From Beroe forskalii (lineage: Eukaryota > Ctenophora > Nuda > Beroida > Beroidae): 64,000 nucleotides of DNA. This document shows positions 8,660-44,865 of the stretch, in pieces. Within the stretch, counting starts at the first letter, position 1, and each line of letters opens with the position of its first letter. The notes beneath the pieces are model-generated. The model was given only the letters and a program-made list of their open reading frames with translations, did no database searches and was not told where the DNA came from. Both the position numbers and the translations under genes were made by a program. Location: NCBI GenBank assembly GCA_011033025.1, contig WFMF01000175.1, positions 124,001-188,000 of the forward strand, in the 5' to 3' direction.

Positions 8660-8941
8660 ATTACAACATAAAAAGGTTTACAAGAGTTTGGGGACTGCCT
8701 TGAATTGAGAAAAATAAATAATAAAGCTCAAGGACTGGGTAAGAATAGCAGTAAAATAATAAAATAACATAAATATCACAACAAAAATATTACAAGAAAA
8801 AAAAACATCGCAACAAGCAACAAAATACATATTACAACAAAAAGGTTTACAAGAGTTTGGGCGTGGAGACTGCCTTGAATTGAGAAAAATAGACAATAAA
8901 GCTCAGGGACGGGGTAAGGATAGCAGTAAAATAATAAAATA
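8660..8941. repeat. imperfect direct duplication of about 105 bp
   Basis: The block at about 8661-8766 (AAAAAGGTTTACAAGAGTTT ... GCAGTAAAATAATAAAAT) is repeated at about 8831-8941 with scattered changes and a 5-bp insertion, separated by an A-rich spacer. Confidence 0.7.
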
Positions 8942-9267
8942 TCGGAACATAGCTGTAGTAAAATGAATGATAATGGAACATTATATAATATCGGAACATA
9001 AGAGGAACTCTAATGGAACATTAAGCATGAAATTTTACAATGGTAGGAATTTTAGTTGTGAAGTGAGAATGAGTCAATTTTCCCAGAAATTAGACAAACG
9101 ATGAATTCAAAGGTCAACACGTTCAAATGTGGAAGAACTTTTGAACCCACCACTCTGTACTGAGGGACCAGGTCTGTTGAACTTCCTCCACAGTGCTAGT
9201 TGCTTGAAATGGAGGACGCAGCCAAGGATGGTGGTTCCTGGCAAAGCCTCGATACTACAAGCAGGAA

Positions 9268-9732
9268 CTAGCCGGAACAACCCGAATCAGCCCGGGTTAG
9301 GGTGTTGAGGGCTTCTGATGACTTCCCAATCCGAGGAAGGAGTCCGTAAGCACTGGCACAGGAAATCCACCAGTCACCATCCAGGAGTCCATGGAGAGTG
9401 AGCAGCTGTGTGAAAAGGTGAGGTGAAGTCTTGAAGGTCGCATCTAGTTCTATGGCAAAGTTTGCCGTTTGGGGAGGTGGATAGGACTTAAGGGGAATCG
9501 CCTGTTCCGAAGTGGTAGGATCATCTTAGGGAGGCACGTAGCCGGAATCCCAAAGGAGCAGGTTGCCGCCATCAGAGGTGGTGAAGTAGGAGGGAGGAAT
9601 GACCAGGTGCTCCAAGGTGGTGAGGTTGAACTTGATGGGATGTCTGTTGTTCTTCTGTCTGGTTCTTCCAGTCATCCGAGCAAGGGACTCCTCAGGGCAG
9701 CCAAGCTTGAGCTTCTCAGTTCTCCCCGTCGG
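9268..9732 (-). pseudogene. decayed MULE (Mutator-like) transposase fragment
   Basis: On the minus strand one frame runs from 9732 to a stop at 9268-9270, interrupted by one internal stop at 9526-9528. Downstream of that stop it reads DATFKTSPHLFTQLLTLHG followed by LLDGDWW and AYGLLPR. This matches the layout of the MULE transposase domain (an Asp-Gly/Ala-Thr-Phe-Lys strand, then LF.QL.T.HG, then YALLP). Before the stop, LLLWDSGY resembles the short segment ahead of the MULE domain in FLYWCH-type transposases. The rest of the catalytic domain is missing. Motif recognition only, not an alignment. Confidence 0.55.
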
Positions 9733-10009
9733 TCAAGGAAAGGGTGAAGGTTGCTGCTAGCTTCTTAAGATTGAGGTCTGAAGAGACAGCTTGGGACTTC
9801 AGGGAGATCTTGGCTTGTTAGATACTCAACTCAGCAGTCTGTTCATCATGGGTGTGAATTGGAGTGTTGGTTGGGATGTTTTTGTGGAGTACAGTAGGCG
9901 TCCTGTGCAATTTTCAGTATTTTCAGTGTTTCTTAATATTTTTAGTGCAATTTGGAATGGCTGATTGAGACTTAAAATTGTGACTCATTTTATTTTCTTT
10001 CATCTTCAG

Positions 10010-23269: not shown

Positions 23270-26200
23270 ATGTTGCTCGTGTTGCTTTCACTGGTACTAG
23301 AGTCCGTGTCAGGAGGAACGTTTTACTTGTTAGACGAGGACGGGGAGCGAACGAATGATGGACTTCTTATTGCAGACAAAGTGGGATCAGATCGGGTGAG
23401 TATCCCAATGAAGGACGAGTTATTGCTATCGGAGGGGCGGAGGCTATTTACTTATTCAATTGAACCGTGCCTGGTATTCCAAAATAGTTTGGAATGTTTG
23501 GAGATACGTCCAACCTGATCACCATCAGTTTGGTCTCTGATTGGTCAATGTTTTAGTTAGATCCACAAACAATTCTAAAAACGTAACAGAGTAAGGATTC
23601 CTAGTGACTTAGCTGTGTTATAATACATCACAAGTGAGGTCATCTAATTTATTCATATGGTGACAGGAATAATAGTTACAAGGCTTCACCTATTAGTCAG
23701 GGGTGAAATGGAAATCCGTTGGCTTTGAATGTTAAAAGCGATTTAGCAACTGGATATGTTATTTAAGACCCTAAGGAAGCTAACTTGACTTGTCGTCAAT
23801 TTTGTATCAGCCTACCACACTTTTTTGACCACGCCCATTTTGGCGCTAGAGGGAAAATAACCATAACTTCGGTTCTTTTTGAGTTGAGAGCAAACGTTCC
23901 ACCTTAAAATGACCGCAATGGCCACATTATGCCAGACGGATGATGGTTCCAAAGCCCTAGGACCCTCCGTTTTCGAGTTACAGCCCAAAAACTGATTTTC
24001 CATCACTCGCGAGGCAGCGCCCTGTGAAAAATGTAACTTTGGTTCCTTTTCGAGTTGGGAGCAAACGAACCACCTTAAAATGATCGCAATCAGCACATTA
24101 TAGGGGGTAGGTAATAATACTGAAGCCTTGGGATCTTCTGTTTTGGATTAATTTCTCAATAAAAAGAATTTAAATTATGTAATTTGCGGATTGGGATGTT
24201 TGATATAAGTCGCATGATAAATTTATTTTTAACCGAGGTTTCTTGAAATTTTGATTGACAATTTTGCGACAATTTTGCTCTTTAAGGGAGTCTTTAAATA
24301 AGATTCAAGGCATAACACACCCCAATCAACTCGTAGCATACCCCTATCTACTCTTAGCACACCCCTTTCAACTTGTTGCATACCACTATCCACTCGTAGC
24401 ATACCCCTGTCAACTCATAACATACTCCTATCAACTCATAACACACCCCAATCAACCCATAACACACCCCTACGGAAGTTTCAAATCGTAGCATACCCCC
24501 ATCAACTCATAACATACCCAAACCACTCATAACCCACCCCTCTGCACCTATAAGCCATCCCTCTCAACTCATACCATACCCCTATCAACTCATCACACAC
24601 CCCTATCAACTCATACCATACACCTATCAACTCATAACACACCCCTATCACCTCATAACACAGCCATATCAACTCATAACACACCCTATCAACACTTAGC
24701 ATACCCCTCTCAACTCATAACACACCCAAGTCAACTCATAACATACCCCAATCAACTCATTACAAACCCCAATCAACTCTTAACACACCCCAGTCAAATA
24801 ATAACATACCCCAATCAACTCATAACATTCACCTACCAACTTATAACATACCCATATCAACTCATAACATACCCCAATAAACTCATAACATGGCCCTATC
24901 AACTCATAACATACCCCTATCACCTCATAACACACCCATATCAACTCCTAACACACCCCTATCAACTCGTAGCATACCCCTATAAACTCAAAACACCCCC
25001 AGTCAACTCATAACATACCCCGATCATCACATTATATATACCCCAATCAGCTCATAACATGCCCCTATCAACTCTTTACACACCCCTATCAACTCGTAAA
25101 ATACCCCTCTCAACTCATAACATGCCCTATCAACTCATAACATACCCCTATCACCTCATAACACACCCATATCAACTCCTAACACACCCCTATCAACTCG
25201 TAGCATACCCCTATAAACTCAAAACACCCCCCAGTCAACTCATAACATATCCCGATCATCACATTATATATACCCCAATCAGCTCATAACATGCCCCTAT
25301 CAACTCTTTACACACCCCTATCAACTCGTAAAATACCCCTCTCAACTCATAACATGCCCCTATAAACTTATAACACCCCTATCAACTCTTAGCATACCCC
25401 TCTCAACTCATAGCACACCCCTCTCAACTCATAACACACCCCTATCAACTGATAACATACCCAAATCAACTCTCAACATGCCCCGATCAACTCTTTACAC
25501 ACCCCTATCAACTCGTAGCATACCCTATCAACTCGATAATACACCCCTATCAACTCATAACATGCCCCTATCAACTCGTAGCATACCCCTCTCAACTCAT
25601 AACATGCCCCTATCAACTCATAACACCCCTATCAACTCTAAGCATACCCCTCTCAACTCATAACACACACCAGTCAACTCATATCATACCCCAATCAACT
25701 CATAACCTACCCCTATCATCTCATAACACACCCCTATCAACTCGCAGCATACCTCTCTCAACTCATAACATGCCCCTATCAACTCATAACACCTCTATCA
25801 ACTCTAAGCATACCCCTCTCAACTCATACCACACACCAGTCAACTCATAACACACCCCTATCAACTCATAACATACCCCTATCAACTTATAACAGACCCC
25901 AGTCAACTATCTATCTATCAAAAATTGTTATGAGTCAATAGGGGCATGTTATGAGTTGAGAGGGGTATGCTACGAGTTGATAGGGGTGTGTTTTGCGTTG
26001 ATAGGGGTACGTTATGAGTTGATTAGGGTATGTTATGAGTTGATAGGGGTGTGTTATGAGTTGAGAGGGGTATGCTAAGAGTTAATAGGGGTATGTTATG
26101 AGTTGACTGGGGTAAAGCAGGACTTGAGAGGGGTATGCTATGATAGGGGTGTTATGAGTCGGCATGTTATGAGTTGAGAGGGGTATGCTACGAGTTGATA

Positions 26201-29200
26201 GGGGTGTGTAAAGAGTAAATTGGGGTATGTTATGAGTTGATTGGGGGTATGTAATGTGATGATTGGGGTATGTTATGAGTTGAGAGGGGTATGCTACGAA
26301 TTGATAGGGGTGTGTTAGGAGTAGATAGGGGCGTGATATGAGGTGATATGTGTATGTTATGAGTTTATTGGGGTTTGTTACGAGTTGATATGGGTACGTT
26401 ATGAGTTGATAGGTGTATGTTATGAGTTTATTGGGGTATGTTATGAGTTGATAGGTGTATGTTACGAGTTGATAGGTGTATGTTACGAGTTGATAGGTGT
26501 ATGTTATGAGTTGATTGGGGTATGTTATGAGTGGTTTGGGTATGTGATGAGTTGATGGGGGTATGCTACGATTTGAAACTTCCGTAGGGGTGTGTTATGG
26601 GTTGATTGGGGTGTGTTATGAGTTGATTGGGGTATGTTATGAGTTGACTGGGGTGTGTTAAGAGTTGATTGGGGTTTGTTATGAGTTGATTGGGTATATT
26701 ATGAGTTGACTTGGGTGTGTTATGAGTTGAGAGGGGTATGCTAAGCGTTGATAGGGTGTGTTATGAGTTGATATGGGTGTGTTATGAGGTGATAGGGGTG
26801 TGTTATGAGTTGATAGGTGTATGGTATGAGTTGAGAGGGATGGCTTATAGGTGCAGAGGGGTGGGTTATGAGTGGATTGGGGTATGTTATGAGTTGATGG
26901 GGGTATGCTACAATTTGATACTTCCGTAGGGGTGTGTTATGGGTTGATTGGGGTGTGTTATGAGTTGATAGGAGTATGCAACAAGTTGAAAGGGGTATGC
27001 TAAGAGTAGATAGGGGTATGCTACGAGTTGATTGGGGTGTGTTATGCCTTTAATCTTATTTAAAGACTCCCTTAAAGAGCAGTTTATCTTGTCGCAAAAT
27101 TGTCAATCAAAATTTCAAGAAACCTCGGTTAAAAATAAATTTATCATGCGACTTATATCAAACATCCCAATCCGCAAATTACATAATTTAAATTCTTTTT
27201 ATTGAGAAATTAATCCAAAACAGAAGATCCCAAGGCTTCAGTACTATTACCTACCCCCTATAATGTGCTGATTGCGATCATTTTAAGGTGGTTCGTTTGC
27301 TCCCAACTCGAAAAGGAACCAAAGTTACATTTTTCACAGGGCGCTGCCTCGCAAGTGATGGAAAATCAGTTTTTGGGCTGTAACTCGAAAACGGAAGGTC
27401 CTAGGGCTTTGGAACCATCATCCGTCTGGCATAATGTGGCCATTGTGGTCATTTTAAGGTGGAACGTTTGCTCTCAACTCCAAAAAGAACCGAAGTTATG
27501 GTTATTTTCCTACGCGCAAAATGGGCGTGGTCAAAAAAGGGTGTGGTCGGCTGATACAAAATTGACGACAAGTCAAGTTAGCTTCCTTAGGGTCCCAAAT
27601 AACACATCCAGTCGCCAAATCGCTTCCAACATTCAAAGCCAACGGATTTAGATATTCGACCAATTCATCCCTGACTATATTTTAAACGTCCTTTCACAAG
27701 CACTGGGTGAATGCAGAGGCACAATTTCAAAGGATTCAGAATCATTTCATATTGAAACGTGGCATCTTTAAAATTTCATTTTCATGCTTCACAAAGCTAT
27801 TTTCTTCCCAGAAAGCACAGAAATTCACACCACACATCTGTGAACCTGTAAGTCTTTACGGTCATTATGGTGTGTAGATAAACATCAAACAACTGCAAAC
27901 CGGGTTTTATCCAAATATCAATAAATAGCGTACACGAAGTAGTGAAAACTGAAAAGTTGGGGAGCAGTGCATCGGAAGGGGCTTGAACCCTTATCTTCCT
28001 GATCCTCCGATTTTAGTAAACCCTAAATTCTGACATTCCCTGTAATTGAACTCACTTCAGCTAACCCATTGTATCTGATTCCCAGACGGGTGCCGTGTGT
28101 GATGACCAGTTTGACGGGATCGCCGCCAAAGTGATCTGTAAGAAGATGGGCTACAACGCCACACTCGGCTTCTCCTCAGGCAGGAACGACTGGAGGAATG
28201 TGCAGGGTCAATACGATTACGTGTTAGATGACGTCACGTGTTATGCAGCAGGTGAGTTGGAGTGGTAGCTATGGTTAGAGTGGTTTTTGGTTGCTATGGT
28301 TAGAGTGGTTACTATGGTTAGAGTGGTTGCTATGGTTAGAGTGGTTGCTATGGTTACAGTGGTTGCTATGGTTACAGTGGTTGCTATGGTTAGTGGTTGC
28401 TATGGTTAGAGTGGTTGCTATGATTAGAGTGGTTTTTGGTTGTTATGGTTAGAGTGGTTACTATGGTTAGAGTGGTCAATACGGCTAAATTGGTCGCTAT
28501 GTTTAGAGTGGTTGCTAAGGTTAGAGTGGTTGCTATGGTTAGAGTGGTAAGAGTGGTTGCGACTTGCTGATTGCCATGGTTATTGGTTGCTATGGTTAGA
28601 GTGGTAACTTCAGTTATTAGAGTGGTTACTGTGGTTAGAGTGGTTACTATGGCTAGATTGCTTAAGATGGTTAAGTGGTTACTATGATTATTTGTTACCG
28701 GAAAGTAAGTTCTAGTGGTAATTTGTTTTATAACCAAGGCCATGCCTTACAAAGGTAAGTTCACGCTACCATGGATGGGAGAAATTTTAGAATTGTAAGC
28801 TTTCGCTATGAAACGCTGACGTTTGAAATAATTAAATGCTATCAGAGTTCAATATGCCAGCTAATTCCCACTAAATCCCCGCAGCACGACCCTTTGACAA
28901 CTGCAACTTCGTTCTGTACGCTGACTGCACCCAGTTCGTTGAACAGGTATAAGGGATGGTTCACATGACACGTAGTCAGATAAGGGTGCTCTCTAGCAAC
29001 TTCTTGTTACTCCCTAGCAACTTCTTGCAACTCCCTAGCAACCTCGTGGTACTCTCTAGAAACTTCTTGCTACTCTCTAGCAACTTCTTGTTACTCCCTA
29101 GCAACTTCTTGTTACTCCCCATCAACTTCTTGTAACTCCCTAACAACGTCTTGCTTTCCTACTTCCCTAGCAACTTCTTAACCCCCTAGACAGCTCTTCT

Positions 29201-32200
29201 AGACAGCTCTTCTCCTCCAGGTATTTCTGGGATGTAAGTGTGAAGGGGACACCTACATGAGACCAGACTATGAGGGGTGTGCCGTGTGTCCTGAGGGAGC
29301 AACGGCATTGGAGAGTGACCCGATGAAGTGTGTCTGTCCACCTGGCCAACATTGGTATAATTCCAAGTAAGTGTCTGTTAACCAGGACAACATTGGCAGG
29401 ATTCCAAGTAAGTGTCTGTCCACCAGGACAACATTGGCATGATTCCAAGTAAGTGTCTGTCCACCTGAACTACATTGGCAGGATTCCAAGTAAGTGTCTG
29501 TCCACCAGGACAACATTGGCAGGATTCCAAGTAAGTGTCTGTCCACCTGGACAACATTGGCAGGATTCCAAGTAAGTGTCTGTCCACCTGGCCAACATTG
29601 GTATAATTCCAAGTAAGTGTATGTTCACCAGGACTACATTGGCAGGATTCCAAGTTAGTATCGTGATCAATTACAGATCACTGATAATTAAGTGATAAAT
29701 AACTAGTCGCCAGGATTGATTGGTCTTGTTATTCATGGTTTGTTTCAAGTGTGAAGAATGTCCCAAGAACACGTACAAACCTCTGAGTAACCCCTGCTTG
29801 TTTTAGGTGTGAAGCATGTCCTGAGAACACGTACAAACCCCTGAGTGACCCCTGCTTGTTTTAGGTGTGAAGCATGTCCTGAGAACACGTACAAACCCCT
29901 GAGTAACTCCCTGCTCGTTTCAGGTGTGAAGCATGTCCTGAGAACACGTACAAACCCCTGAGTAACTCATCCTTGTTTTAGGTGTGAAGCATGTCCCAAG
30001 AACACGTACAAACCCCTGAGTAACCCCCCTGCTTGTTTCAGGTGTGAAGCATGTCCTGAGAACACGTACAAACCCCTGAGTGACCCCTCCCCCTGTACCC
30101 CTTGTCCTGTGTACTCCACTTCGGACCCAGGGGCGGAGTCGTGTTCATGCCCCGCGGGGTTTAAGTGGAGTGAGGGGCGGTGCGTGATGTGTTCTGAGGG
30201 CAGCATCAGTCAGCCGGGCAGTGATGCGTGCTACAGGTGAGACAACAGCTAATCGTGTCATGATTTCCCTCTCAAAACATTTCCCAACCAGCCGACGGTA
30301 ATCACATAATATTCGAAAATCGAAAGTTTTTGATATCATGATCTCTCGCATCAGTCAAATGTTTCCAACTTCTCACCCTAAATTTCCTTACCTACTCAAG
30401 AACCAACTCCTTAACTAAAACATTTCCCCACCTAATTAAAACCTAATTATACCTAATCTATAATCAACTCCCCAGTTGTCCTGTAGGATCGCGGGCTATG
30501 CCCGGTAATGCCGCGTGTAGCTGTAAAGCTGGATCCTACTGGAACTCCACTCACTGCGTCTTCTGTCCGCCCAACCACTACAGCAGCGGGGACTCCTTTA
30601 GCTGCTCCCCCTGCCCTCAAAACACCGTCTCTTTGACAGGTACACAGTGACCTAAAAACACAGTCTCTTTGACAGGTACACAGTGACCTCAAAACACCGT
30701 CTCTTTGACAGGTACACAGTGCCCTCAAAACACAGTCTCTTTGACAGGTACACAGTGCCCTCAAAACACAGTCTCTTTGACAGGTACACAGTGCCCTCAA
30801 AACACCGTCTCTTTGACAGGTACGCAGTGCCCTCAAAACACAGTCTCTTTGACAGGTACACGTCGAGTTACTAGGACAAATCCAGGCTTTTTTCTAGGTT
30901 TAAGAGACAGAGGTTCTCCGAATGTAGATGATATTATATCCAAGGTTTATCAGCTAAACGTATTTGTACTGCGTGTTCGTGTCGATGGTTTCATTTCAAG
31001 ATTGGATCGTGATTGATATATTATAATTAACCCCCCCTTCTCAGGCGCCAGCCACTGCTCAGGGTGTCCCAAATGGCACGTGTGGCGTAGCAACTACACA
31101 TGTGAGCCGTGTGGAGAGGGTGTGGTGGACGGGGCGTGCTCCTGCCCTCCAGGCTACACCAAACGAGGTTTTTACCTAAATGTTTTTTGGGGAAGCCTCA
31201 ATTCCGGCTGGGTCGTGTTATACTTATGTTTTGGCGATAAGTCGGATATGATGCGAGTTCATTCTATAATGAATAATAACTGCTGACAGTACTACGGCAG
31301 TACACCGGGAGATATAAGGGAGTGAAGAGGGATTCCTACTCCCTCTTCACTCCTGTAGGGATTAAACAGGGAGTAGCACTCCCTTTTTACTCCTGTAGGC
31401 CTCCCGCATTAATTATCACGTGACTTATGGGTTTCAATTTTATGTTACGATGAGTTATGACAGTTGGCCCCTAGAATGATCATTATAAGGGTATGACCTT
31501 GAAAACACTACGTACCCCTTTCAGGACAAGTCTGTGTGGAAGAAGGTAACTCAATGAAGCAAACCGGAGCCCCAAAAGACGTTACGGCGATCATTTTGGG
31601 AGTGGTACTCTTTGTTTTCTTAGCTATTGCTGTCCTGCTGCTAATAAAGTGAGTCATTTCATCATCTTCCCTATGTAGATTACGCTTGTCTAATCAAAGG
31701 GCATTTTCTTTTAATGCAAATAAATTCTGCGCTGTTCCTTTAAACATTAAACAAACCAAATGTAAGACACCAATTCTGATAATCGGTTTCTACGAAGGAT
31801 ATTAGCGCAGATTTCCGAGACATTAGAATCCTCCCCTAACTCCGCCTTCTCCCAGGTTCAGGTTCACGATCCGGCGCTCCAAACCCCCCAGCAGTGCCGC
31901 ACCCCTCGTTCCCTACAGCGTGGTCAGAGAATCCGAACACTCCTCCCTTCCCCCGGTCTTCTCCCCCCTCCGGATGGAGGACTCCTCCCCCGAAGGAGAA
32001 GGGGACAGGATATACCACGAACTACACTTCCCTCAGACCCCAGATGATGAGTACGTGGCACCGGACATGGACCCAATGTACGTGCAGAGCGATAGGACTG
32101 ACAGTAATGAGGAGGGGAGGGAGTACCAGGATGTGGATGAGAGCGTGGGGTACTCTGTGTTTTGTGGGGCGGTGGGAGAGACAGAGAGGAGGAATGCGGG

Positions 32201-32234
32201 GGAGATCGAGGATAATATCTACGATAATATCTGA
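23270..32234 (+). CDS. SRCR / ephrin-receptor-like Cys-rich single-pass receptor, nine exons
   Basis: Exons: 23270-23395, 28086-28251, 28885-28946, 29221-29366, 30042-30236, 30476-30639, 31045-31167, 31525-31648, 31856-32234. All phases join without a stop to give 494 residues. Signal peptide MLLVLLSLVLESVSG, then a divergent SRCR domain (residues about 17-118; VCDDQFDGIAAKVICKKMGY, DDVTCY). Next come GCC2/GCC3-type Cys-rich repeats (about 119-330; CVCPPGQHW, CSCPAGFKW, CSCKAGSYW, CSCPPGYTK), a TM helix at about 347-368 (AIILGVVLFVFLAIAVLLL), then a basic stop-transfer and a tail of about 125 residues. The tail carries VPYSVV (ITIM-like), IYHEL, EYVAP, MYVQS, EYQDV, GYSVF and a terminal IYDNI. 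A plasma-membrane recognition receptor signalling through phosphotyrosines is inferred. A start at 23270 gives the signal peptide. Several introns contain repeat arrays that duplicate splice sites; exons 4-9 recur downstream. Confidence 0.88.
23693..27680. mobile_element. 4-kb foldback element within intron 1 of the receptor
   Basis: Unique outer arms (about 23693-24320 and 27045-27680) are near-perfect reverse complements of each other. Inside them a 21-bp minisatellite (ACTCATAACACACCCCTATCA type) runs on the plus strand at 24300-25915 and on the minus strand at 25930-27045, meeting at a short centre near 25920. Each outer arm contains two diverged copies, 170 bp apart, of a segment with GAGCAAACG..CCACCTTAAAATGA. 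No coding capacity is seen. The structure resembles foldback (FB/Galileo-like) elements, whose arms contain tandem repeats; the family is not assigned. Confidence 0.8.
28255..28690 (+). repeat. 18-bp intronic minisatellite after exon 2
   Basis: Irregular copies of TTGCTATGGTTAGAGTGG begin within a few bases of the exon 2 donor (28252 GTGAGT). G-rich on the coding strand, C/A-rich on the other. Confidence 0.85.
28985..29190 (+). repeat. intronic minisatellite before exon 4
   Basis: About ten irregular copies of ACTCCCTAGCAACTTCTTG (19-20 bp) lie directly upstream of the exon 4 acceptor at 29220. Only one copy remains at the matching place in the downstream duplicate (33441). Confidence 0.8.
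29331..29660 (+). repeat. 41-bp array of duplicated splice donors (exon 4 end), copy A
   Basis: The end of exon 4 plus its donor is repeated with an exact 41-bp period. Exon-end positions followed by GTAAGT are 29366, 29407, 29448, 29489, 29530, 29571 and 29612; an eighth at 29653 is degraded to GTTAGT. Passing the first donor meets an immediate TAA (AAG TAA), so only the first site is productive. Confidence 0.92.
29741..30041 (+). repeat. 59-bp array of duplicated splice acceptors (exon 5 start), copy A
   Basis: The unit contains the polypyrimidine tract, the AG and the first 42 or so bases of exon 5. AG acceptors fall at 29806, 29864, 29923, 29981 and 30041; an earlier copy near 29748 has lost its consensus. 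Only the last continues into the full exon. The others lead to frame loss and a stop. Confidence 0.92.
30615..30860 (+). repeat. 36-bp array of duplicated splice donors (exon 6 end), copy A
   Basis: Seven exon ends followed by GTACAC occur at 30639, 30675, 30711, 30747, 30783, 30819 and 30855. The unit would encode TQCPQNTVSLTG, but in this copy the first extension reads CAG TGA, so only the first donor keeps the frame open. Confidence 0.92.
31316..31354 (+). repeat. hairpin in intron 7
   Basis: AGGGAGTGAAGAGGGA and TCCCTCTTCACTCCT are reverse complements around a loop of about 7 bases. Absent from the corresponding intron of the duplicate. Confidence 0.7.
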
Positions 32235-32405
32235 GGATAATATCAACGGTAATATCTGAAGTTGAAGATAATATCTACTGTAATATCTGAGGATAATATC
32301 TACGATAATATCTGAGGATAATATCTACGGTAATATCTGAGATCGAAGACAATATCAACGATAATATCTGAGATCGAGGATAATATCTGAGATCGAGGAT
32401 AATAT
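32205..32405 (+). repeat. 31-bp repeat covering the stop codon, copy A
   Basis: The last codons (EDNIYDNI, stop) and the following bases are repeated in irregular copies into the 3' UTR (GAGGATAATATCTACGGTAA TATCTGA type). Each copy carries its own TGA. Confidence 0.85.
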
Positions 32406-32746
32406 CTAGTTTTACGGTTGAACAGAACAAGACCTGGCTATTGCATCGACAGAATTGAGGATCGATCCTAATAGCGCAGTTCACTAAGACTTGTCGACTA
32501 TTGAGTCGACAACCTACCAAGGCCAACCGACAAAGAGTTAATTCTTGGATTTATTGTGTATGATTGTGACAGTAACAAAAACTTTTAATTTTCACAAAAC
32601 TAAATAGCCATATTATCCATACGAATATATAAAACGTATTGTGTGTGCTCACTTCTCATAGGTCTTATAGTATAGGATAGATGCACAATGTGAAGAATTA
32701 TGGAATGTACCCAGAAAAACTGAGCAGACTTCTATTTTAACTGTAT

Positions 32747-32752
32747 AATAAA
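32747..32752 (+). terminator. polyadenylation signal, receptor copy A
   Basis: AATAAA about 515 bases after the stop. The surrounding 3' UTR is nearly identical in the duplicate. Confidence 0.55.
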
Positions 32753-32925
32753 GTTTTTACGATGCACTGTAACATTAAATTGAATACAGCTTGACATGAT
32801 TTTTATTGATTGGGAATGTTATTGTATTTTGACCACTTTGAATTGATTTGAATTTTACAACCTCTTTTATAATTGCGTTGACTACAATTTCGACAAGGTT
32901 GCATAATTCCAGCCGGAGGATGTTC

Positions 32926-33440
32926 GCGTTAGGTTAGATAAAATTTATTGATTCGAAAAGTTTTTCGTCGCAAAAGTTGTCCTGACGTGGCCGCACTACA
33001 CTAGCGACCGGTCATATACAGGTATAAGAACGGTTTGCAGTGTGGTATTCTTCAACAAAGTTTGTGATAGATTAATATGTTTCAAAAGATAAAATAAAAA
33101 TGTTTCAATGCAGTTCATGCAGGTCTTAGCATGCCAAAATCTGTTTTTCGCCCGATAACTCCGTTCCTAAGAGCATTTTGCAGGGGCATATTTTGTCAAC
33201 AATTGTATACTCGGGCATGCTCATTGCGCACATTTTCCGCCCAAAATGAAGTCTCTACGACCTTCCTGAGCCGAGATACGATTTTTTACATATCAGTCGG
33301 CTATCAGCTAAAAATCGATTTTTCGGCACTTTCCACACTCGGAGGTGTGGAAAGTTCGATTTTTCATGCAAACTATAGAATCCATGCAAAATCGCTTGTG
33401 TAGAATTTGTCCACTTTTAAATCCAATTTTGACTGTATTA
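32926..33440. other. spacer between the duplicated blocks
   Basis: No exon resembling a signal peptide or SRCR domain is found here. A small hairpin (CACTTTCCACAC / GTGTGGAAAGT) lies near 33328-33356. Confidence 0.55.
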
Positions 33441-33506
33441 TAGCAACTTCTTAACCATATACCCCCCCCCCCTAGACAGCTCTTCTTGACAGTATTTATC
33501 CTCCAG

Positions 33507-36500
33507 GTATTCCTGGGATGTAAGTGTGAAGGGGACTCCTACATGAGGCCAGACTATGAAGGGTGTGCCGTATGTCCTGAGGGAGCAACGGCATTGGAGA
33601 GTGACCCGATGAAGTGTGTCTGTCCACCTGGCCAACATTGGTATAATTCCAAGTAAGTGTCTGTCCACCTGGACAACATTGGCAGGATTCCAAGTAAGTG
33701 TCTGTCCACCAGGACTACATTGGCAGGATTCCAAGTAAGTGTCTGTCCACCTGGACATTGGCAGGATTCCAAGTAAGTGTCTGTCCACCTGGCCAACATT
33801 GGTATAATTCCAAGTAAGTGTCTGCCCACCTGGACTACATTGGCATGACTCCAAGTAAGTGTCTGTCCACCTGGAAAACATTGGCATGACTCCAAGTGAG
33901 TGTCTGTCCACCTGGACTACATTGGCATGATTCCAAGTAAGTATCGATGATCAATTACATGATCACTGATAATTAAGTGATAAACAACTATTCGCTCAGG
34001 ATTGATCGGTCTTGTTACTCCCCTGCTTGTTTCAGGTGTGAAGCATGTCCTGAGAACACGTACAAACCCCTGAGTAACCCCCCGCTTGTTTCAGGTGTGA
34101 AGCATGTCCTGAGAACACGTACAAGCCCCTGAGTAACCCCCTGCTCGTTTCAGGTGTGGAGCATGTCCTGAGAACACGTACAAACCTCTGAGTAACCCCT
34201 TGCTCGTTTCAGGTGTGAAGCATGTCCTGAGAACACGTACAAGCCCCTGAGTAACCCCCTGCTTGTTTCAGGTGTGAAGCATGTCCTGAGAACACGTACA
34301 AACCCCTGAGTAACCCCTTGCTCGTTTCAGGTGTGAAGCATGTCCTGAGAACACGTACAAACCCCTGAGTAACCCCCTGCTTGTTTCAGGTGTGAAGCAT
34401 GTCCTGAGAACACGTACAAACCCCTGAGAAACTCATCCTTGTTTCAGGTGTGAAGCATGTCCTGAGAACACGTACAAACCCCTGAGTAACCCCCTGCTTG
34501 TTTCAGGTGTGAAGCATGTCCTGAGAACACGTACAAACCCCTGAGAAACTCATCCTTGTTTCAGGTGTGAAGCATGTCCTGAGAACACGTACAAACCCCT
34601 GAGTAACCCCTTGCTCGTTTCAGGTGTGAAGCATGTCCTGAGAACACGTACAAACCCCTGAGTAACCCCTTGCTCGTTTCAGGTGTGAAGCATGTCCTGA
34701 GAACACGTACAAACCCCTGAGTAACCCCTTGCTCGTTTCAGGTGTGAAGCATGTCCTGAGAACACGTACAAACCCTGAGTAACCCCTTGCTCGTTTCAGG
34801 TGTGAAGCATGTCCTGAGAACACGTACAAACCCCTGAGTAACCCCTTGCTCGTTTCAGGTGTGAAGCATGTCCTGAGAACACGTACAAACCCCTGAGTAA
34901 CCCCCTGCTTGTTTCAGGTGTGAAGCATGTCCCAAGAACACGTACAAACCCCTGAGTGACTCCTCCCCCTGCACCCCATGTCCAGTGTACTCCACCTCGG
35001 ACCCAGGAGCGGAGTCGTGTTCGTGTCCAGCTGGGTTTAAGTGGAGTGAGGGGCGGTGCGTGATGTGTTCTGAGGGAAGCATCAGTCAACCTGGCAGTGA
35101 TGCGTGCTACAGGTAAGACCACAGCTGTAATCGTGACATGATTTCCCTCTCAAAACATTTCCCAACCCGACGACGGTAATCACATAATATTCGAAAATCG
35201 AAAGTTTCTGATATCATGATTTCTCGTATCAGTCAAACGTTTCTAATTTTCAACTTATCACCCTAAATTCCTACTTAACAACCAACTCCTGAAGTAAAAC
35301 ATTTCCCTACCTAATTAATACCTGATTATATCAATAATCAACTCCCCAGTTGTCCTGTAGGATCGCGGGCTATGCCCGGTAATGCGGCGTGTAGCTGTAA
35401 AGCTGGATCCTACTGGAACTCCACTCACTGCGTCTTCTGTCCGCCCAACCACTACAGCAGTGAGAATTCCTTTAGCTGCTCCCCCTGCCCTCAAAACACC
35501 GTCTCTTTGACAGGTACACAGTGCCCTCAAAACACCGTCTCTTTGACAGGTACACAGTGCCCTCAAAACACCGTCTCTTTGACAGGTACACGTTGAGTTA
35601 CTAAGACAAATCCAGGCTTTTTTCTAGGTTAAAGAGACAGAGATTCTCCGAATGTAGATGATATATCCAAGGTTTATCTAAACGTATTTGTACTGCGTGT
35701 TCGTGTCGATGGTTTCATTTCAAGATTGGATCGTGATTGATATATAATAATTAATCCCCTTCTCAGGCGCTAGCCACTGCTCTGGTTGCCCCAAGTGGCA
35801 CGTGTGGCGCAGTAACTACACGTGTGAGCCGTGTGGAGAGGGAGTGGTGGACGGGGCCTGCTCCTGCCCTCCAGGCTACACCAAACGAGGTTTTTAACTA
35901 AATGTTTTTGGGGAAGCCTCAATTTCGGCTGGGTCGTGTTATACTTGGGGAAATGACATTTCATCTCACGACACTTCATCACACAACACTTTATCTCAAA
36001 TATGTCAACTCTACATAAAGATTAGGGTCTGGGTTAGGATGCGGGTCTGGGTATCGGTATGAGTAGGGTTCCAGTTACGGTTATGGTTAGGGTCAAGACA
36101 GGGAGATGAAGTGTCCTGAGATGAAATGTCGTACACCCAATTGATGATCATTATATTGGTAAGCAAACCAGTGCAGTTCCCAACCTTTTCAATTGGGTAA
36201 ACACTACGTATCCTTTCAGGACAAATTTGTGTAGAAGAAGGTAACTCAATGAAGCAAACCGGAGCCCCAAAAGACGTTACGGCGATCATTCTGGGAGTGG
36301 TACTCTTTGTTTTCCTAGCTATTGCTGTCCTGCTGCTAATAAAGTGAGTTGTCACCATCATCCCTATCTACTATCTAGCTAACGCTTTTCTTATTTTCTT
36401 ATCAAGGGGCATTTTCTTTTAATGCAAATGAATTCTACGCTGTCCCTTTAAACAAACCAGCAGATTTCCGAGACATTAGAATTCTCCCCCTAACACTCCG

Positions 36501-36891
36501 CCCTACTCTCAGGTTTAGGTTCACGATTCGTCGCTCCAAACCCCCCAGCAGTGCCGCACCCCTCGTTCCCTACAGCGTTGTCAGAGAATCAGAACACTCC
36601 TCCCTTCCCCCCGTCTTCTCCCCCCTCCGGATGGAGGACTCTTCTCCCGAAGGAGAAGGGGACAGGATATACCACGAACTACACTTCCCCCAGACACCAG
36701 ATGATGAGTACGTGGCACCGGACATGGACCCAATGTACGTGCAGAGCGATAGGACTGATAGTAATGAGGAGGGGAGGGAGTATCAGGATGTAGATGAGAG
36801 TGTGGGGTACTCTGTGTTTTGTGGGGCGGTAGGAGAGACAGAGAGGAGGAACGCGGGGGACATTGAGGATAATATCTACGATAATATCTGA
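33507..36891 (+). CDS. duplicated 3' half of the SRCR-type receptor (exons 4-9 only)
   Basis: Exons 33507-33652, 34918-35112, 35350-35513, 35767-35889, 36220-36343 and 36513-36891 match copy A exons 4-9 in length and phase exactly. They encode the Cys-rich stalk, TM and full tyrosine-rich tail (377 codons). By eye about 49 codons differ synonymously and about 7 change an amino acid; in the last exon the count is 17 to 1. That implies purifying selection. No signal peptide, SRCR or start exon lies between the copies. The first acceptor is phase 0, compatible with the phase-0 donor of exon 3 at 28946, so it could be an alternative 3' module of the upstream gene. It could instead be a separate gene with an unseen 5' exon, or a copy kept similar by gene conversion. 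Confidence 0.8.
33617..33940 (+). repeat. 41-bp splice-donor array, copy B
   Basis: Exon ends at 33652, 33693, 33734, 33772, 33813, 33854, 33895 and 33936. Seven are followed by GTAAGT and the one at 33895 by GTGAGT. One unit is 38 bp. The fifth exon end, like one in copy A, closes a unit that repeats the exon end exactly (GTATAATTCC), so the array has a shared internal order. Confidence 0.92.
34022..34917 (+). repeat. 59-bp splice-acceptor array, copy B (16 acceptors)
   Basis: AG acceptors at 34035, 34094, 34153, 34212, 34271, 34330, 34389, 34447, 34506, 34564, 34623, 34682, 34741, 34799, 34858 and 34917. Nearly all have an intact TTGTTTCAG or CTCGTTTCAG tract. Only the last opens into the complete exon 5. 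Confidence 0.93.
35489..35590 (+). repeat. 36-bp in-frame splice-donor array, copy B
   Basis: Donors after 35513, 35549 and 35585. The frame stays open across all three, so use of the second or third would add one or two TQCPQNTVSLTG repeats to the Cys-rich stalk. Confidence 0.9.
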
Positions 36892-37150
36892 GGATAATAT
36901 CAACGGTAATATCTGAAGTTGAAGATAATATCTACGGTAATATCTGAAATTGACGATAATATCTACGGTAATATCTGAGATCGAGGATAATATCTACGGT
37001 AATATCTGAAATTGAGGATAATATCTACGGTAATATCTGAAATTGAGGATAATATCTACGGTAATATCTGAGATTGAGGATAATATCTACGGTAATATCT
37101 GAAGTTGAGGATAATATCTACGGTAATATCTGAGATCGAGGATAATATCT
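36865..37150 (+). repeat. 31-bp repeat covering the stop codon, copy B
   Basis: About nine units of GAGGATAATATCTACGGTAA plus TATCTGAGATC. More copies than in copy A. Confidence 0.88.
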
Positions 37151-37487
37151 AGTTTTACGGTTGAACAGAACAAGACCTGGCTATTGCATCGACAGAATTG
37201 AGGATCGATCCTAATAGCGCAGTTCACTAAGACTTGTCGACTATTGAGTCGACAACCTACCAAGGCCAATCGACAAGAGTTAATTCTTGATTTATTGTGT
37301 ATGATTGTGACAGTAACAAAAAACTTTTAATTTTCACAAACTAAATAGCCATATTATCCATACGAATATATAAAACGTATTGTGTGTGCTCACTTCTCAT
37401 AGGTCTTATAGTATAGGATAGATGCACAATGTGAAGAATTATGGAATGTACCCAGAAAAACTGAGCAGACTTCTATTTTAACTGTAT

Positions 37488-37493
37488 AATAAA
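37488..37493 (+). terminator. polyadenylation signal, receptor copy B
   Basis: AATAAA in the same context as in copy A. Confidence 0.5.
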
Positions 37494-37711
37494 GTTTTTA
37501 CGATGCACTGTAACATTAAATTGAATACAGCTTGACATGATTTTTATTGATTGAATGTTATTATTGTATTTGACCACTTTGAATTGATTTGAATTTTACA
37601 ACATATCTTTTATAATTGCGTTGACTACAATTTCGACAAGGTTCGCATAATTCCAGCCGGAGGGATCTGGAATGCGTTAGATAATGGTAAATTTTAGACC
37701 AAAAGTGAACC

Positions 37712-40700
37712 AAATCGTGCGGAAATCTGCGTTTTTACGGAATAACTTGGAAATATTTCAACACTTATTTTTTCAAAATCATGAAATAAGAAAGTTACCC
37801 ACCGACTGATTATAACTAATGAGAATAATGAGAATTTGCTGCATTCGAGTGATAATACTAGAAAGTTGGCAGTCCATATGAGTAATTTTCGAGATACCTA
37901 TCAGGTCAAATGGTTCAAAATGGCAAAAGTCGATTTCGAGCATGTTCCCACCAACAGATTTTCCTGGAATTTTGCAAGGATGTTCATTTCATCATTGTCT
38001 TTCATAAACCATAAAGAAAATGGGGGGTCTATGCTAATTTTCGAGATATAAGGTCAAACGCAAGGAAATACCGACGAAAATGGTTCAATAATGGCAAAAA
38101 GTCGATTTTGAGGATGTTCCCACCAACAGATTTTTCTGAAATTTTGCAGGGATGTTCATTTCATCATTGTCTTTCAGAAACCATAAAGAAAATTGGGGGT
38201 CTATGTGCTAATTTTCGAGATATAAGGTCAAACGCAAGGAAATACCGACGAAAATGGTTCAAAAATGGCAAAAAGTCGATTTCGAGCATGTTCCCACCAA
38301 CAGATTTTCCTGGAATTTTGCAAGGATGTTCATTTCATCATTGTCTTTCATAAACCATAAAGAAAATGGGGGGTCTATGTGCTAATTTTCGAGATATAAG
38401 GTCAAACGCAAGGAAATACCGACGAAAATGGTTCAATAATGGCAAAAAGTCGATTTTGAGGATGTTCCCACCAACAGATTTTCCTGAAATTTTGCAGGGA
38501 TGTTCATTTCATCATTGTCTTTCAGAAACCATAAAGAAAATTGGGGGTCTATGTGCTGATTTTCAAGATATAAGGTCAAACGCAAGGAAATACCGACGAA
38601 AATGGTTCAAAAATGGCAAAAAGTCGATTTTGAGGATGTTCCCACCAACAGATTTTCCTGAAATTTTGCAGGGATGTTCATTTCATCATTGTCTTTCAGA
38701 AACCATAAAGAAAATTGGGGGTCTATGTGCTAATTTTCGAGATATAAGGTCAAACGCAAGGAAATACCGACGAAAATGGTTCAAAAATGGCAAAAGTCGA
38801 TTTTGAGGATGTTTCCACCAACAAATTTTCCTGAAATTTTGCAGGGATGTTCATTTCATCATTGTCTTTCAGAAACCATAAAGAAAATTGGGGGTCTATG
38901 CTAATTTTCGAGATATAAGGTCAAACGCAAGGAAATACCGACGAAAATGGTTCAAAATGGCAAAAGTCGATTTTGAGGATGTTCCCACCAACAGATTTTC
39001 CTGAAATTTTGCAGGGATGTTCATTTCATCATTGTCTTTCAGAAACCATAAAGAAAATTGGGGTCTATGTGCTAATTTTCGAGATATAAGGTCAAACGCA
39101 AGGAAATACCGACGAAAATGGTTCAAAAATGGCAAAAGTCGATTTTGAGGGTGTTCCCACCAACAGATTTTCCTGAAATTTTGCAGGGATGTTCATTTCA
39201 TCATTGTCTTTCAGAAACCATAAAGAAAATTGGGGGTCTATGTGCTGGTTTTCGAGATATAAGGTCAAACGCAAGGAAATACCGACGAAAATGGTTCAAA
39301 AATGGCAAAAAGTCGATTTTGAGGATGTTCCCACCAACAGATTTTCCTGAAATTTTGCAGGGATGTTCATTTCATCATTGTCTTTCAGAAACCATAAAGA
39401 AAATTGGGGGTCTATGTGCTAATTTTCGAGATATAAGGTCAAACGCAAGGAAATACCGACGAAAATGGTTCAAAATGGCAAAAGTCGATTTTGAGGATGT
39501 TCCCACCAACAAATTTTCCTGAAATTTTGCAGGGATGTTCATTTCTCTTCAGAAACCATAAAGAAAATTGTAGCAGGGATTTTCGAGATATACCGACGAA
39601 AATGGTTCAAAAATGGCAAAAATTTTGAGGATGTTCTACCAACAGATTTTCCTGAAATTTTGCAGGGATGTTCATTTCATCATTGTCTTTCAGAAACCAT
39701 AAAGAAAATTGGGGGTCTATGTGCTAAAAATGGTTCAAAAATGGAAAAAGACGAAAATGGTTCAAAAATGGCAAAAGTCGGAGGGTGTTCCCATCAACAG
39801 ATTTTCCTGAAATTTTGCAGGGATGTTCATTTCATCATTGTCTTTCAGAAACCATAAAGAAAATTGGGGTCTATGTGCTAATTTTCGAGATATAAGGTCA
39901 AACGCAAGGAAATACCGACGAAAATGGTTCAAAATGGCAAAAGTCGATTTTTGAGGATGTTCCCACCAACAGATTTTCCTGAAATTTTGCAGGATGTTCA
40001 TTTCATCATTGTCTTTCAGAAACCACAAAGAAAATGGGGGTCTATGTGCTAATTTTCGAGATATAAGGTCAAACGCAAGGAAATACCGACGAAAATGGTT
40101 CAAAATGGCAAAAAGTCGATTTTGAGGATGTTCCCACCAACAGATTTTCCTGAAATTTTGCAGGATGTTCATTTCATCATTGTCTTTCAGAAACCATAAA
40201 GAAAATTGGGGGTCTATGTGCTAATTTTCGAGATATAAGGTCAAACGCAAGGAAATACCGACGAAAATGGTTCAAAATGGCAAAAGTCGATTTTGAGGAT
40301 GTTCCCACCAACAGATTTTCCTGAAATTTTGCAGGGATGTTCATTTCATCATTGTCTTTCAGAAACCATAAAGAAAATTGGGGGTCTATGTGCTAATTTT
40401 CGAGATATAAGGTCAAACGCAAGGAAATACCGACGAAAATGGTTCAAAATGGCAAAAGTCGATTTTGAGGGTGTTCCCACCAACAGATTTTTTCCTGAAA
40501 TTTTGCAGGATGTTCATTTCATCATTGTCTTTCAGAAACCATAAAGAAAATTGGGGGTCTATGTGCTAATTTTCGAGATATAAGGTCAAACGCAAGGAAA
40601 TACCGACGAAAATGGTTCAAAATGGCAAAAGTCGATTTTGAGGGTGTTCCCACCAACAGATTTTCCTGAAATTTTGCAGGGATGTTCATTTCATCATTGT

Positions 40701-43700
40701 CTTTCAGAAACCATAAAGAAAATTGGGGGTCTATGTGCTAATTTTCGAGATATAAGGTCAAACGCAAGGAAATACCGACGAAAATGGTTCAAAATGGCAA
40801 AAGTCGATTTTGAGGATGTTCCCACCAACAGATTTTCCTGAAATTTTGCAGGGATGTTCATTTCATCATTGTCTTTCAGAAACCATAAAGAAAAAATTGG
40901 GGGTCTATGTGCTGATTTTCAGATATAAGGTCAAACGCAAGGAAATACTGACGAAAATGGTTCAAAAATGGCAAAAGTCGATTTTGAGGATGTTCCCACC
41001 AACAGATTTTCCTGAAATTTTGCAGGGATGTTCATTTCATCATTGTCTTTCAGAAACCATAAAGAAAATTGGGGGTCTATGTGCTAATTTTCGAGATATA
41101 AGGTCAAACGCAAGGAAATACCGACGAAAATGGTTCAAAAATGGCAAAAGTCGATTTTGAGGATGTTCCCACCAACAGATTTTCCTGAAATTTTGCAGGG
41201 ATGTTCATTTCATCATTGTCTTTCAGAAACCATAAAGAAAATTGGGGGTCTATGTGCTAATTTTCGAGATATAAGGTCAAACGCAAGGAAATACCGACGA
41301 AAATGGTTCAAAAATGACGAAAAGTCGATTTTGAGCATGTTCCCACCAACAGATTTTCCTGAAATTTTGCAGGGAGGTTCATTTGATCATTAGCTTTCAG
41401 AAACCATAAAGAAAATCGGGGGTCTATGTGCTAATTTTCGAGATATAAGGTCAAACGCAGGGAAATACCGACGAAAATGGTTCAAAAATGACATAAAGTC
41501 GTATTTGAGCATGTTCCCACCAACAGATTTTCCTAAAATTTTGCAGGGATGTTCATTTCATCACTTTCTTTCAGAAACCATGAAGAAAATTGGGGGCATA
41601 TGAGCTAATTTTCGAGATATAAGGTCAAACGCGAGGAAATACCGACGAAAATGGTTCAAAATGGCAAAAGTCGATTTTGAGGATGTTCCCACCAACAGAT
41701 TTTCCTGAAATTTTGCAGGGATGTTCATTTCATCATTGTCTTTCAGAAACCATAAAGAAAATTGGGGTCTATGTGCTAATTTTCGAGATATAAGGTCAAA
41801 CGCAAGGAAATACCGACGAAAATGGTTCAAAATGGCAAAAAAGTCGATTTTGAGGATGTTCCCACCAACAGATTTTCCTGAAATTTTGCAGGGATGTTCA
41901 TTTCATCATTGTCTTTCAGAAACCATAAAGAAAATTGGGGGTCTATAAAGGTCACATTCAATACAAGCAAAATCAAAAATTTTGTGTAATATTTTGTGGA
42001 TATTTCCACGCTTATACTTTTTTCTTCTTTTAAGCCAAACTAGCAGAAATACTCAAATATTGTACTTCCACTGCATTAAAGTTATAAAATTCAGTGTATA
42101 TTGATTGGTATATTGTATATCTTCTTATCTTGTATAATAATGTATGTGGCACCTAGTATATAATTATCTTGGAGGGTCATGATAGTTGATAGGGCTGTCA
42201 AACTCTTGGTAATGAGGTCGTCTAGCTGCGTTTTCTTACCTCATTACCCTAAGGGCTATTACCTTATCCTGTTAGCGTGATAGTTTATCCTCAAGATGGC
42301 CAATATTGAGTGATAATCTTTCCCTAATTGGTTTAGTCAAGTGAGTGACATGACCGTGATGGGAAACGTATGCTCGTGTGGCTAGCTTAAACTTTTATGG
42401 GAACAACTTCAGCCGTCTCATGGTAGCCTTTCTCCTGAGTTTCTCAGTAACACTTGACCTTGGGTGATATCGATCGGAGTATATTTTTGTATATTAGTGT
42501 ATTGGTAAGCTATGATGAAAGACTGTATATTTTGAACCATTACCTATATGCTATAGTTTCGTGCATATTCGTTGCGTTTCGTGTAATTTCCTTGCGTTTG
42601 ACCTTATACCTCGAAAATTAGCACATAGACCCCCAATTTTCTTAATGGTTTCTGAAAGACAATGATGAAATGAACATCCCTGCAAAATTTCAGGAAAATC
42701 TGTTGGTGGGAACACCCTCAAAATCGACTTTTTGCCATTTTTGAACCATTTTCGTCGGTATTTCCTTGCGTTTGACCTTACATCTCGGAAATTAGCACAT
42801 AGACCCCCAATTTTCTTTATGGTTTCTGAAAGACAATGATGAAATGAACATCCCTGCAAAATTTCAGGAAAATCTGTTGGTGGGAACATCCTCAAAATCG
42901 ACTTTTTGCCATTTTTGAACCATTTTCGTCGGTATTTCCTTGCGTTTGACCTTATATCTCGAAAATTAGCACGTAGACCCCCAATTTTCTTTATGGTTTC
43001 TGAAAGACAATGATGAAATGACCATCCCTGCAAAATTTCAGAAAAATCTGTTGGTGGGAACATCCTCAAAATCGACTTTTTGCCATTTTTGAACCATTTT
43101 CGTCGGTATTTCCTTGCGTTTGACCTTATATCTCGAAAATTAGCACATAGACCCCCAATTTTCTTTATGGTTTCTGAAAGACAATGATGAAATGAACATC
43201 CCTGCAAAATTTCAGGAAAATCTGTTGGTGGGAACACCCTCAAAATCGACTTTTTGCCATTTTTGAACCATTTTCGTCGGTATTTCCTTGCGTTTGACCT
43301 TATATCTCGAAAATTAGCAAATAGACTTCAATTTTCTTTATGGTTTCTGAAAGACAATGATGAAATGAACATCCCTGCAAAATTTCAGGAAAATCTGTTG
43401 GTGGGAACACCCTCAAAATCGACTTTTTGCCATTATTGAACCATTTTCGTCGGTATTTCCTTGCGTTTGACCTTATATCACGAAAATTAGCACATAGACC
43501 CCCAATTTTCTTTATGGTTTCTGAAAGACAATGATGAAAGGAACATCCCTGCAAAATTTCAGGAAAATCTGTTGGTGGGAACATCCTCAAAATCGACTTT
43601 TTGCCATTTTTGAACCATTTTCGTCGGTATTTCCTTGCGTTTGACCTTATATCTCGAAAATTAGCACATAGACCCCCAATTTTTCTTTATGGTTTCTGAA

Positions 43701-44865
43701 AGACAATGATGAAATGAACATCCCTGCAAAATTTCAGGAAAATCTGTTGGTGGGAACACCCTCAAAATCGACTTTTTGCCATTTTTGAACCATTTTCGTC
43801 AGTATTTCCTTGCGTTTGACCTTATATCTCGAAAATTAGCACATAGACCCCCAATTTTCTTTATGGTTTCTGAAAGACAATGATGAAATAAACATCTCTG
43901 CAAAATTTCAGGAAAATCTGTTGGTGGGAACATCCTCAAAATCGACTTTTAACCATTTTTGAACCATTTTCGTCGGTATTTCCTTGCGTTTGACCTTATA
44001 TCTCGAAAATTAGCACATAGACCCCCAATTTTCTTTATGGTTTCTGAAAGACAATGATGAAATGAACATCCCTGCAAAATTTCAGGAAAATCTGTTGGTG
44101 GGAACACCCTCAAAATCGACTTTTGCCATTTTTGAACCATTTTCGTCGGTATTTCCTTGCGTTTGACCTTATATCTCGAAAATTAGCACATAGACCCCCA
44201 ATTTTCTTTATGGTTTCTGAAAGACAATGATGAAATGAACATCCCTGCAAAATTTCAGGAAAATCTGTTGGTGGGAACATCCTCAAAATCGACTTTTTGC
44301 CATTTTTGAACCATTTTCGTCGGTATTTCCTTGCGTTTGACCTTATATCTCGAAAATTAGCACATAGACCCCCAATTTTCTTTATGGTTTCTGAAAGACA
44401 ATGATGAAATGAACATCCCTGCAAAATTTCAGGAAAATCTGTTGGTGGGAACACACTAAAATCGACTTTTTGCCATTTTTTGAACCATTTTCGTCGGTAT
44501 TTCCTTGCGTTTGACCTTATATCTCGAAAATTAGCACATAGACCCCCAATTTTCTTTATGGTTTCTGAAAGACAATGATGAAATGAACATCCCTGCAAAA
44601 TTTCAGGAAAATCTGTTGGTGGGAACATCCTCAAAATCGACTTTTGCCATTTTTGAACCATTTTCGTCGGTATTTCCTTGCGTTTGACCTTATATCTCGA
44701 AAATTAGCACATAGACCCCCAATTTTCTTTTATGGTTTCTGAAAGACAATGATGAAATGAACATCCCTGCAAAATTTCAGGAAAATCTGTTGGTGGGAAC
44801 ATCCTCAAAATCGACTTTTTGTCATTTTTGAACCATGGTTCACTTGGTTCACGAAAGTCCAACTC
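37712..44865. mobile_element. large foldback element 1 with inverted 174-bp satellite arms
   Basis: A unique left end (GCGGAAATCTGCGTTTTTAC) leads into about 23 plus-oriented 174-bp units (about 37903-41946). A unique central spacer of about 630 bp (41946-42575) follows, then about 13 minus-oriented units (42575-44835), and a right end with the palindrome GAACCATGGTTC and GTCCAACTC. Ends, spacer and even the order of the first variant units recur at 52342-58735. The spacer has an 11-bp stem GGTAATGAGGT / ACCTCATTACC but no gene. Family unknown. Confidence 0.8.

Follow-up and report, generated by a model that had tools for sequence, protein, structure and literature searches.

A putative SRCR receptor gene of the ctenophore Beroe forskalii carries a second, constrained 3′ module that lacks a head of its own in the assembly

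In a 64,000-nucleotide stretch of the genome of the ctenophore Beroe forskalii (hereafter the window; assembly GCA_011033025.1, contig WFMF01000175.1, positions 124,001 to 188,000 of the forward strand), we investigated a + strand receptor gene made of three head exons and a six-exon 3′ module, the module being present twice. The downstream copy, B, is an intact, in-phase and constrained second set of 3′ exons without a head of its own in the assembly. The likeliest present arrangement, which we prefer slightly and tentatively, is that one head is shared by cis-splicing with the module of copy A or that of copy B. Partial gene duplicates are commonly written off as dead. With every part of B under constraint and no front end found for it, the locus makes it possible to test cleanly whether sharing a head can preserve a copy that has none. 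Genome-wide searches were run on the 216-Mb assembly (1,134 contigs).

Copy A occupies 29221–32234 and is built of exons 4 (29221–29366), 5 (30042–30236), 6 (30476–30639), 7 (31045–31167), 8 (31525–31648) and 9 (31856–32234), with a polyadenylation (poly(A)) signal, AATAAA, at 32747–32752. Copy B (33507–36891) repeats these six 3′ exons at 33507–33652, 34918–35112, 35350–35513, 35767–35889, 36220–36343 and 36513–36891 and has its own AATAAA at 37488–37493; all lie on the + strand. In each copy the transmembrane segment was placed by eye in exon 8, and exon 9 encodes the cytoplasmic tail and the stop codon. Each copy comprises 1,131 nucleotides (nt), that is, 376 codons and a stop; exon lengths agree in six of six exons, and all six acceptors and five donors of each copy are AG and GT (11 of 11). 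Module B is thus complete and in phase, and starts about 0.75 kb beyond the poly(A) signal of A. The original prediction, made from the sequence of this window, had stated that B keeps the exon lengths, phases, splice sites and poly(A) signal of A, and the six matching lengths, the 11 splice sites and the AATAAA at 37488 bear this out.

The coding sequences of A and B differ at 58 positions, of which 51 are synonymous and 7 are replacements, with no insertion or deletion (indel) in 1,131 nt; an earlier count by eye had the replacements right at 7 and the synonymous changes too low at about 49. Third codon positions account for 50 of the 58 differences, and 369 of 376 residues are identical, with one of the seven replacements in the tail. 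One replacement, E55K, sits in a repeat-array unit and may have arisen as units of the array exchanged sequence, both letters being present among the units of A. We set aside polarizing the seven replacements with the distant paralogues C913, C389 and C333 (32–41% identity to the module), whose alignment was too loose.

Purifying selection on B, until recently or still now, in the stalk, membrane part and tail alike, is the firm result of this comparison. The Nei–Gojobori method gave a synonymous divergence (dS) of 0.240 and a replacement divergence (dN) of 0.008, a dN/dS of 0.033 (0.011–0.064 by codon bootstrap), with similar constraint on the stalk (0.039), the membrane part (0.043) and the tail (0.017). 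In neutral simulations that placed half of the divergence on B, left B unconstrained and held A wholly constrained, about 73 replacements were expected, and 7 or fewer occurred in 0 of 400 runs. Indels tell the same story, with 22 events in 676 aligned intron sites against none in 1,131 coding nt. We combined the two by multiplying the replacement tail probability by the chance of zero coding indels at the intron rate; the product was 0.066 for a B that had been neutral for 10% of its separate history, 0.025 for 12% and 0.0002 for 20%. The unconstrained share of that history is therefore at most about 11%, a bound that assumes half of the divergence on B, depends on the intron alignment and is a product rather than a formal interval. 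The prediction that a dead fragment should not look like this held up in so far as B is no long-dead fragment. The low dN/dS speaks for most of the time since A and B separated rather than for the present, and constraint on B does not prove alternative splicing.

A genome-wide search for further copies found no second close head, and A and B as the only close copies of the module. A six-frame module search (109 of 186 candidates scored) returned 79 matches, of which 12 are the six exons of A and the six of B on the window contig; the other 67 lie on other contigs at 27–48% identity. The head search returned 73 matches, 3 of them the gene's own head exons on the window contig and the remaining 70 at 27–53%. 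The 3′ flank of the module occurs at two places in the genome, both on the window contig. Own 5′ exons for B, as in a complete tandem duplicate, were not found in the assembled genome, where there is a single close head. An allelic duplicate or haplotig assembled in tandem was rejected, the silent divergence of 0.24 being far above the 2% single-nucleotide heterozygosity given in the genome paper on the ctenophore Hormiphora californensis (PMC8527503) and no second contig carrying the locus or, at an identity expected of alleles, the gene at 17021–19417; an assembly join at the dispersed element to the left of B may nevertheless have produced the layout.

The original prediction had proposed looking for a hidden first exon of B between the two modules, and none was found: of the eight ATG-initiated frames in 32235–33506 that reach 12 codons, not one has a phase-0 donor scoring at least 6 of 9 consensus positions, in a search that covered single ATG exons of this kind (shorter exons, weaker donors and multi-exon heads lying outside it) and for which exon 1 of the gene served as control at 8 of 9. 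A hidden signal-peptide exon of that form was accordingly rejected.

Sharing of the head is the likeliest arrangement because the sole head found is that of A. This head consists of exon 1 (23270–23395, + strand, 126 nt, carrying the start codon and a signal-peptide-like stretch and ending in phase 0), exon 2 (28086–28251, +), which encodes the bulk of the SRCR domain, and exon 3 (28885–28946, +), which ends in phase 0 at the donor CAG/GTATAA (6 of 9). Under this arrangement, one head and promoter would feed two near-equivalent terminal modules, with exon 3 (or exon 1, both being phase 0) spliced to B whenever A is skipped together with its poly(A) site. The benefit would more probably be one of dose or of regulation than a protein of another kind. 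Disulphide-rich ectodomains, as a general rule, fold in the secretory pathway, from which we infer that a signal-peptide head was attached to B during most of its history. That the phase-0 acceptor of B fits the exon 3 donor at 28946, as had been pointed out, is real but is not independent evidence, because the phase was inherited from exon 4 of A and the end of exon 1 is also phase 0. A more elaborate version, in which one head serves two stalk–membrane–tail modules through skipping of the whole six-exon module with its poly(A) site while repeat arrays at exon edges tune the splicing, strikes us as possible but rather doubtful.

Several observations weigh against a shared head. The proteins of A and B are almost identical (7 of 376 residues differ), so that an alternative yielding the same product needs a further reason to be kept; this near identity argues against a choice between different receptors. 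Donor scores are 6 of 9 for exon 3, 6 of 9 for exon 6 and 5 of 9 for exon 7, and because exons 6 and 7 score no better, the exon 3 donor gives no sign of regulated splicing. The acceptor stretches of B contain one pyrimidine fewer than those of A in five of six exons and an equal number in the sixth, and at third positions G or C in A is matched by A or T in B 30 times and the reverse 12 times (P = 0.008); together these may mean weaker use of B, although the direction of change is unpolarized. Lastly, the left edge of B looks, from its sequence context, like a later boundary and not like the original duplication breakpoint, and its truncated-element edge fits a later deletion of the front of B equally well. 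The proposal that one head could be joined to either of two modules thus stands as far as it concerns the one head found in the assembled genome and the lack of any in the spacer by the search above, and is weakened by the near-equal proteins and by a left edge that fits a lost head.

That left edge carries the strongest competing explanation, a serious possibility though short of probable, in which B is a full tandem duplicate, long under selection, whose head and promoter were lost recently, still exist in other individuals, or were left out or collapsed during assembly. A deletion would then end inside the dispersed element, and B would now be a young relic. The main evidence is that the element end, with 172-bp repeats (33117–33440, +), stops at 33440–33443, where the likeness to intron 3 of A starts; this residual likeness (33441–33506, +) lies to the right of the element, and its frame is open into exon 4 from 33444 without an ATG. 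By BLAST the A/B likeness begins at 33468, and a 16-bp match seen by eye extends it to 33441, adjoining the element; the matching point in A is 29168, only about 220 bp to the right of the end of exon 3. The window copy of the element is not preceded on its left by another repeat unit and has none elsewhere on its contig, whereas 38 of the 39 other scored copies have further units on the same contig (units being counted by contig). Because the left edge of B abuts a left-truncated element, B may formerly have extended farther to the left. A long constraint on equal proteins would also be explained by two full genes, each with a promoter of its own, and the lower silent-site G/C and slightly poorer acceptors of B fit such a history. 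The loss of the head must, however, fall within the last 11% or so of the separate history of B, and no second close head that might have been its own was found in the assembly. The junction is not simple either, since the 181 bp to the left of the element, a spacer at 32936–33116 (+), has no counterpart: 32926–33116 occurs once in the genome, and 32921–33118 matches nothing in the rest of the window beyond 15–18 bp. Moreover, scoring covered just 40 of the 927 element candidates, so the 39 other copies are possibly a biased sample. If this history were the true one, the locus would be a dated example of how fast relics stop looking alive.

Less probable, and in our estimate unlikely, is that B is a separate transcription unit with a distant or unrecognized first exon or a spliced leader, perhaps starting at a non-AUG codon within the open stretch that precedes it. 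That stretch of 63 nt, open from 33444, reads ...LFLTVFILQ/VFLG into exon 4 and is hydrophobic, whereas A is open for only 18 nt before exon 4, from 29203; the B stretch holds no ATG, and in the spacer the search for an ATG exon whose phase-0 donor reaches 6 of 9 found none. Sequences related to the Hormiphora leader give room for a separate 5′ end of B, because they occur in this genome: there are 39 spliced-leader-like matches (1 with two mismatches and 38 with three) against 1 in a reversed control, at places including L047 position 1501. One of three inspected leader-like sequences is followed by CAG/GTAGAC, the other two lacking a directly following GT. According to the genome paper on H. 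californensis, 56% of Iso-Seq reads carry the leader in that species, a figure given there as a lower bound (PMC8527503). In the window itself, however, the leader pattern has no match at three mismatches, and a variant allowing five gives one match, at 6351.

The block has not diverged evenly, which bears on the last explanation. Between 29658–32920 and 33941–37664, substitutions number 44 in 676 aligned intron sites and 3 in 509 sites of the 3′ untranslated region (UTR) and flank, compared with 51 in about 249 silent sites (silent versus intron, P = 6 × 10−9; 3′ flank versus intron, P = 3 × 10−8). These noncoding counts come from a realignment and exclude the repeat arrays, the middle of intron 7, which could not be aligned, the flank to the left of exon 4 and the last intron 7 piece (2 substitutions in 25 aligned sites); with costlier gaps, the introns had shown 55 substitutions in 678 sites and the 3′ flank 23 in 514. 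The simplest explanation is that the 3′ end was homogenized, and part of the block has probably undergone gene conversion. Function of the UTR alone is no explanation, because substitutions are also few past the poly(A) signal (2 in 152 sites, against 1 in 357 in the UTR before it). The 3′ flank contains 11 indel events in its 509 aligned sites. Sequencing error is an unlikely source of these, noncoding indels being frequent (11 in 509 and 22 in 676) and exons having 0 in 1,131. CpG decay was rejected as the cause of the silent divergence, since CpG transitions make up only 6 of 58 differences; yet non-CpG four-fold sites differ at 5 of 46 against 30 of 171 for all, and composition may explain part of the silent divergence. 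The Hormiphora genome paper describes high exon and depressed intron single-nucleotide polymorphism heterozygosity with many noncoding indels, judged there to be likely a mapping effect (PMC8527503). The pattern here is like it in showing more change in exons than in introns together with noncoding indels, but it lies in an assembled alignment.

The idea that B is not used at all, the block being a recent copy or A having maintained the likeness through gene conversion, draws support from the nearly unchanged 3′ flank (P = 2.7 × 10−8 against introns), which points to homogenization of part of the block, but is improbable, because with a ratio of 51:7 and not a single coding indel B can have been free during no more than some 11% of its separate history, and the simulations strongly disfavour it. 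Conversion alone, which the original prediction had named as what might account for the similarity, cannot give such a ratio because it is blind to the difference between synonymous and replacement changes, and the zero coding indels likewise speak otherwise.

Returning to the gene itself, its domain content suggests a probable single-pass receptor with a signal peptide and SRCR head, a cysteine-rich TNFR/ephrin-receptor-like stalk, a transmembrane segment and a tail. The head matches the Pfam SRCR model PF00530 at 36.4 bits (cut-off 26.1) over residues 40–113, and the same stretch gives PDB matches to PIT54, LOXL2, MSR1 and DMBT1. Exon 1 is signal-peptide-like by hydropathy only (2.6 over 11 residues). 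In the stalk, an ELAPOR1-type TNFR-like model scores 38.5 bits (cut-off 33.2), and NCD3G and ephrin-receptor-like models score under their cut-offs. The module translations, read by eye, show the transmembrane segment in exon 8 and seven tyrosines in the tail.

Arrays of short tandem repeats span several exon edges of the gene in both copies, all on the + strand. In A, a 41-bp unit at the exon 4 donor (29330–29659) presents eight donor copies including the exon's own, a 58/59-bp unit at the acceptor edge of exon 5 (29740–30090) presents six copies (five with AG, the first with AA), and a 36-bp unit at the exon 6 donor (30612–30861) presents seven donor copies. The corresponding arrays of B hold eight donor copies of the 41-bp unit (33616–33942), 16 acceptor copies of a 59-bp unit (34020–34964) and three donor copies of the 36-bp unit (35486–35591), with the frame open through the latter. 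These three arrays run into the intron, and their copy numbers differ between A and B in at least two. Units of 25–31 bp that contain the last codons and the stop form further arrays at 32208–32408 in A and 36862–37151 in B. The later exon 6 donors of B keep the frame and would add 12 residues each, whereas the first extra unit of A contains an in-frame stop; judging from these frames, module B alone could extend its stalk by successive steps of 12 residues. Exon-edge arrays also occur beyond this locus: a second SRCR/stalk gene (C389, at L039:3121–3330) carries four acceptor-bearing tandem units, counted by eye.

Other repeats and a neighbouring gene surround the receptor gene. Its intron 1 holds a large inverted repeat (23694–27677; about 1.8 kb per arm, 85% identity, with arms of 21-bp minisatellite). 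Directly past copy B start long 174-bp satellite arrays in both orientations, at 37908–41946, 42577–44836 (reverse), 52542–57389 and 58884–61021, about 87–97% alike among the matches listed. Upstream, a gene at 17021–19417 looks by eye like an LDLa-repeat G-protein-coupled receptor and has one exact place in the genome and 41 further matches at 64–74% DNA identity (40 of 45 candidates scored). Elsewhere in the assembly, the COX1 frame of the contig that bears it needs TGA to be read as tryptophan; ARAGORN, run with the bacterial code, finds no transfer RNA (tRNA) there, and two long frames, at 7546–8652 (368 amino acids) and 8929–9870 (313 amino acids, stop to stop), have no Pfam match. The published account of the B. 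forskalii mitochondrion gives two frames that it leaves unidentified, near 7.8 and 9.3 kb (384 and 222 amino acids), and no tRNA found (PMC6991124); the second frame here is longer than that reported there.

In the literature, no headless 3′ module kept under selection appeared among the matches listed, which does not in itself show its absence from print. The large duplicated exons of the Drosophila gene Gr39a are 5′ exons. Gr39a resembles the present gene in that duplicated coding exons are joined to shared exons, with purifying selection and with exon losses and pseudogenes (PMC2204066); here, by contrast, the duplicated part is the 3′ six exons with their own poly(A) signal, and their joining to a shared head is putative. 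Among ctenophores, the portion seen of a survey of Mnemiopsis leidyi counts 55 SRCR genes, an expanded family with many domain combinations to which the SRCR gene described here is akin, and that portion makes no mention of an SRCR domain combined with a TNFR/ephrin-like stalk and a doubled 3′ module (PMC11797021). The exon-edge arrays are like the ‘mirages’ of the amphioxus Adh3 and globin genes, in which tandem units contain a splice site and an exon edge, vary in copy number and present many AG or GT sites (PMC3087553); here, too, the repeat unit spans the exon–intron boundary with its splice signal. The arrays differ from the amphioxus mirages in lying at three splice sites of a single gene and also at its stop codon; both copies have them, and the units measure 41, 58/59, 36 and 25–31 bp. 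Arrays of the mirage type are thereby extended from amphioxus to a ctenophore and, since they lie in the same gene, their effect on splice choice is directly measurable.

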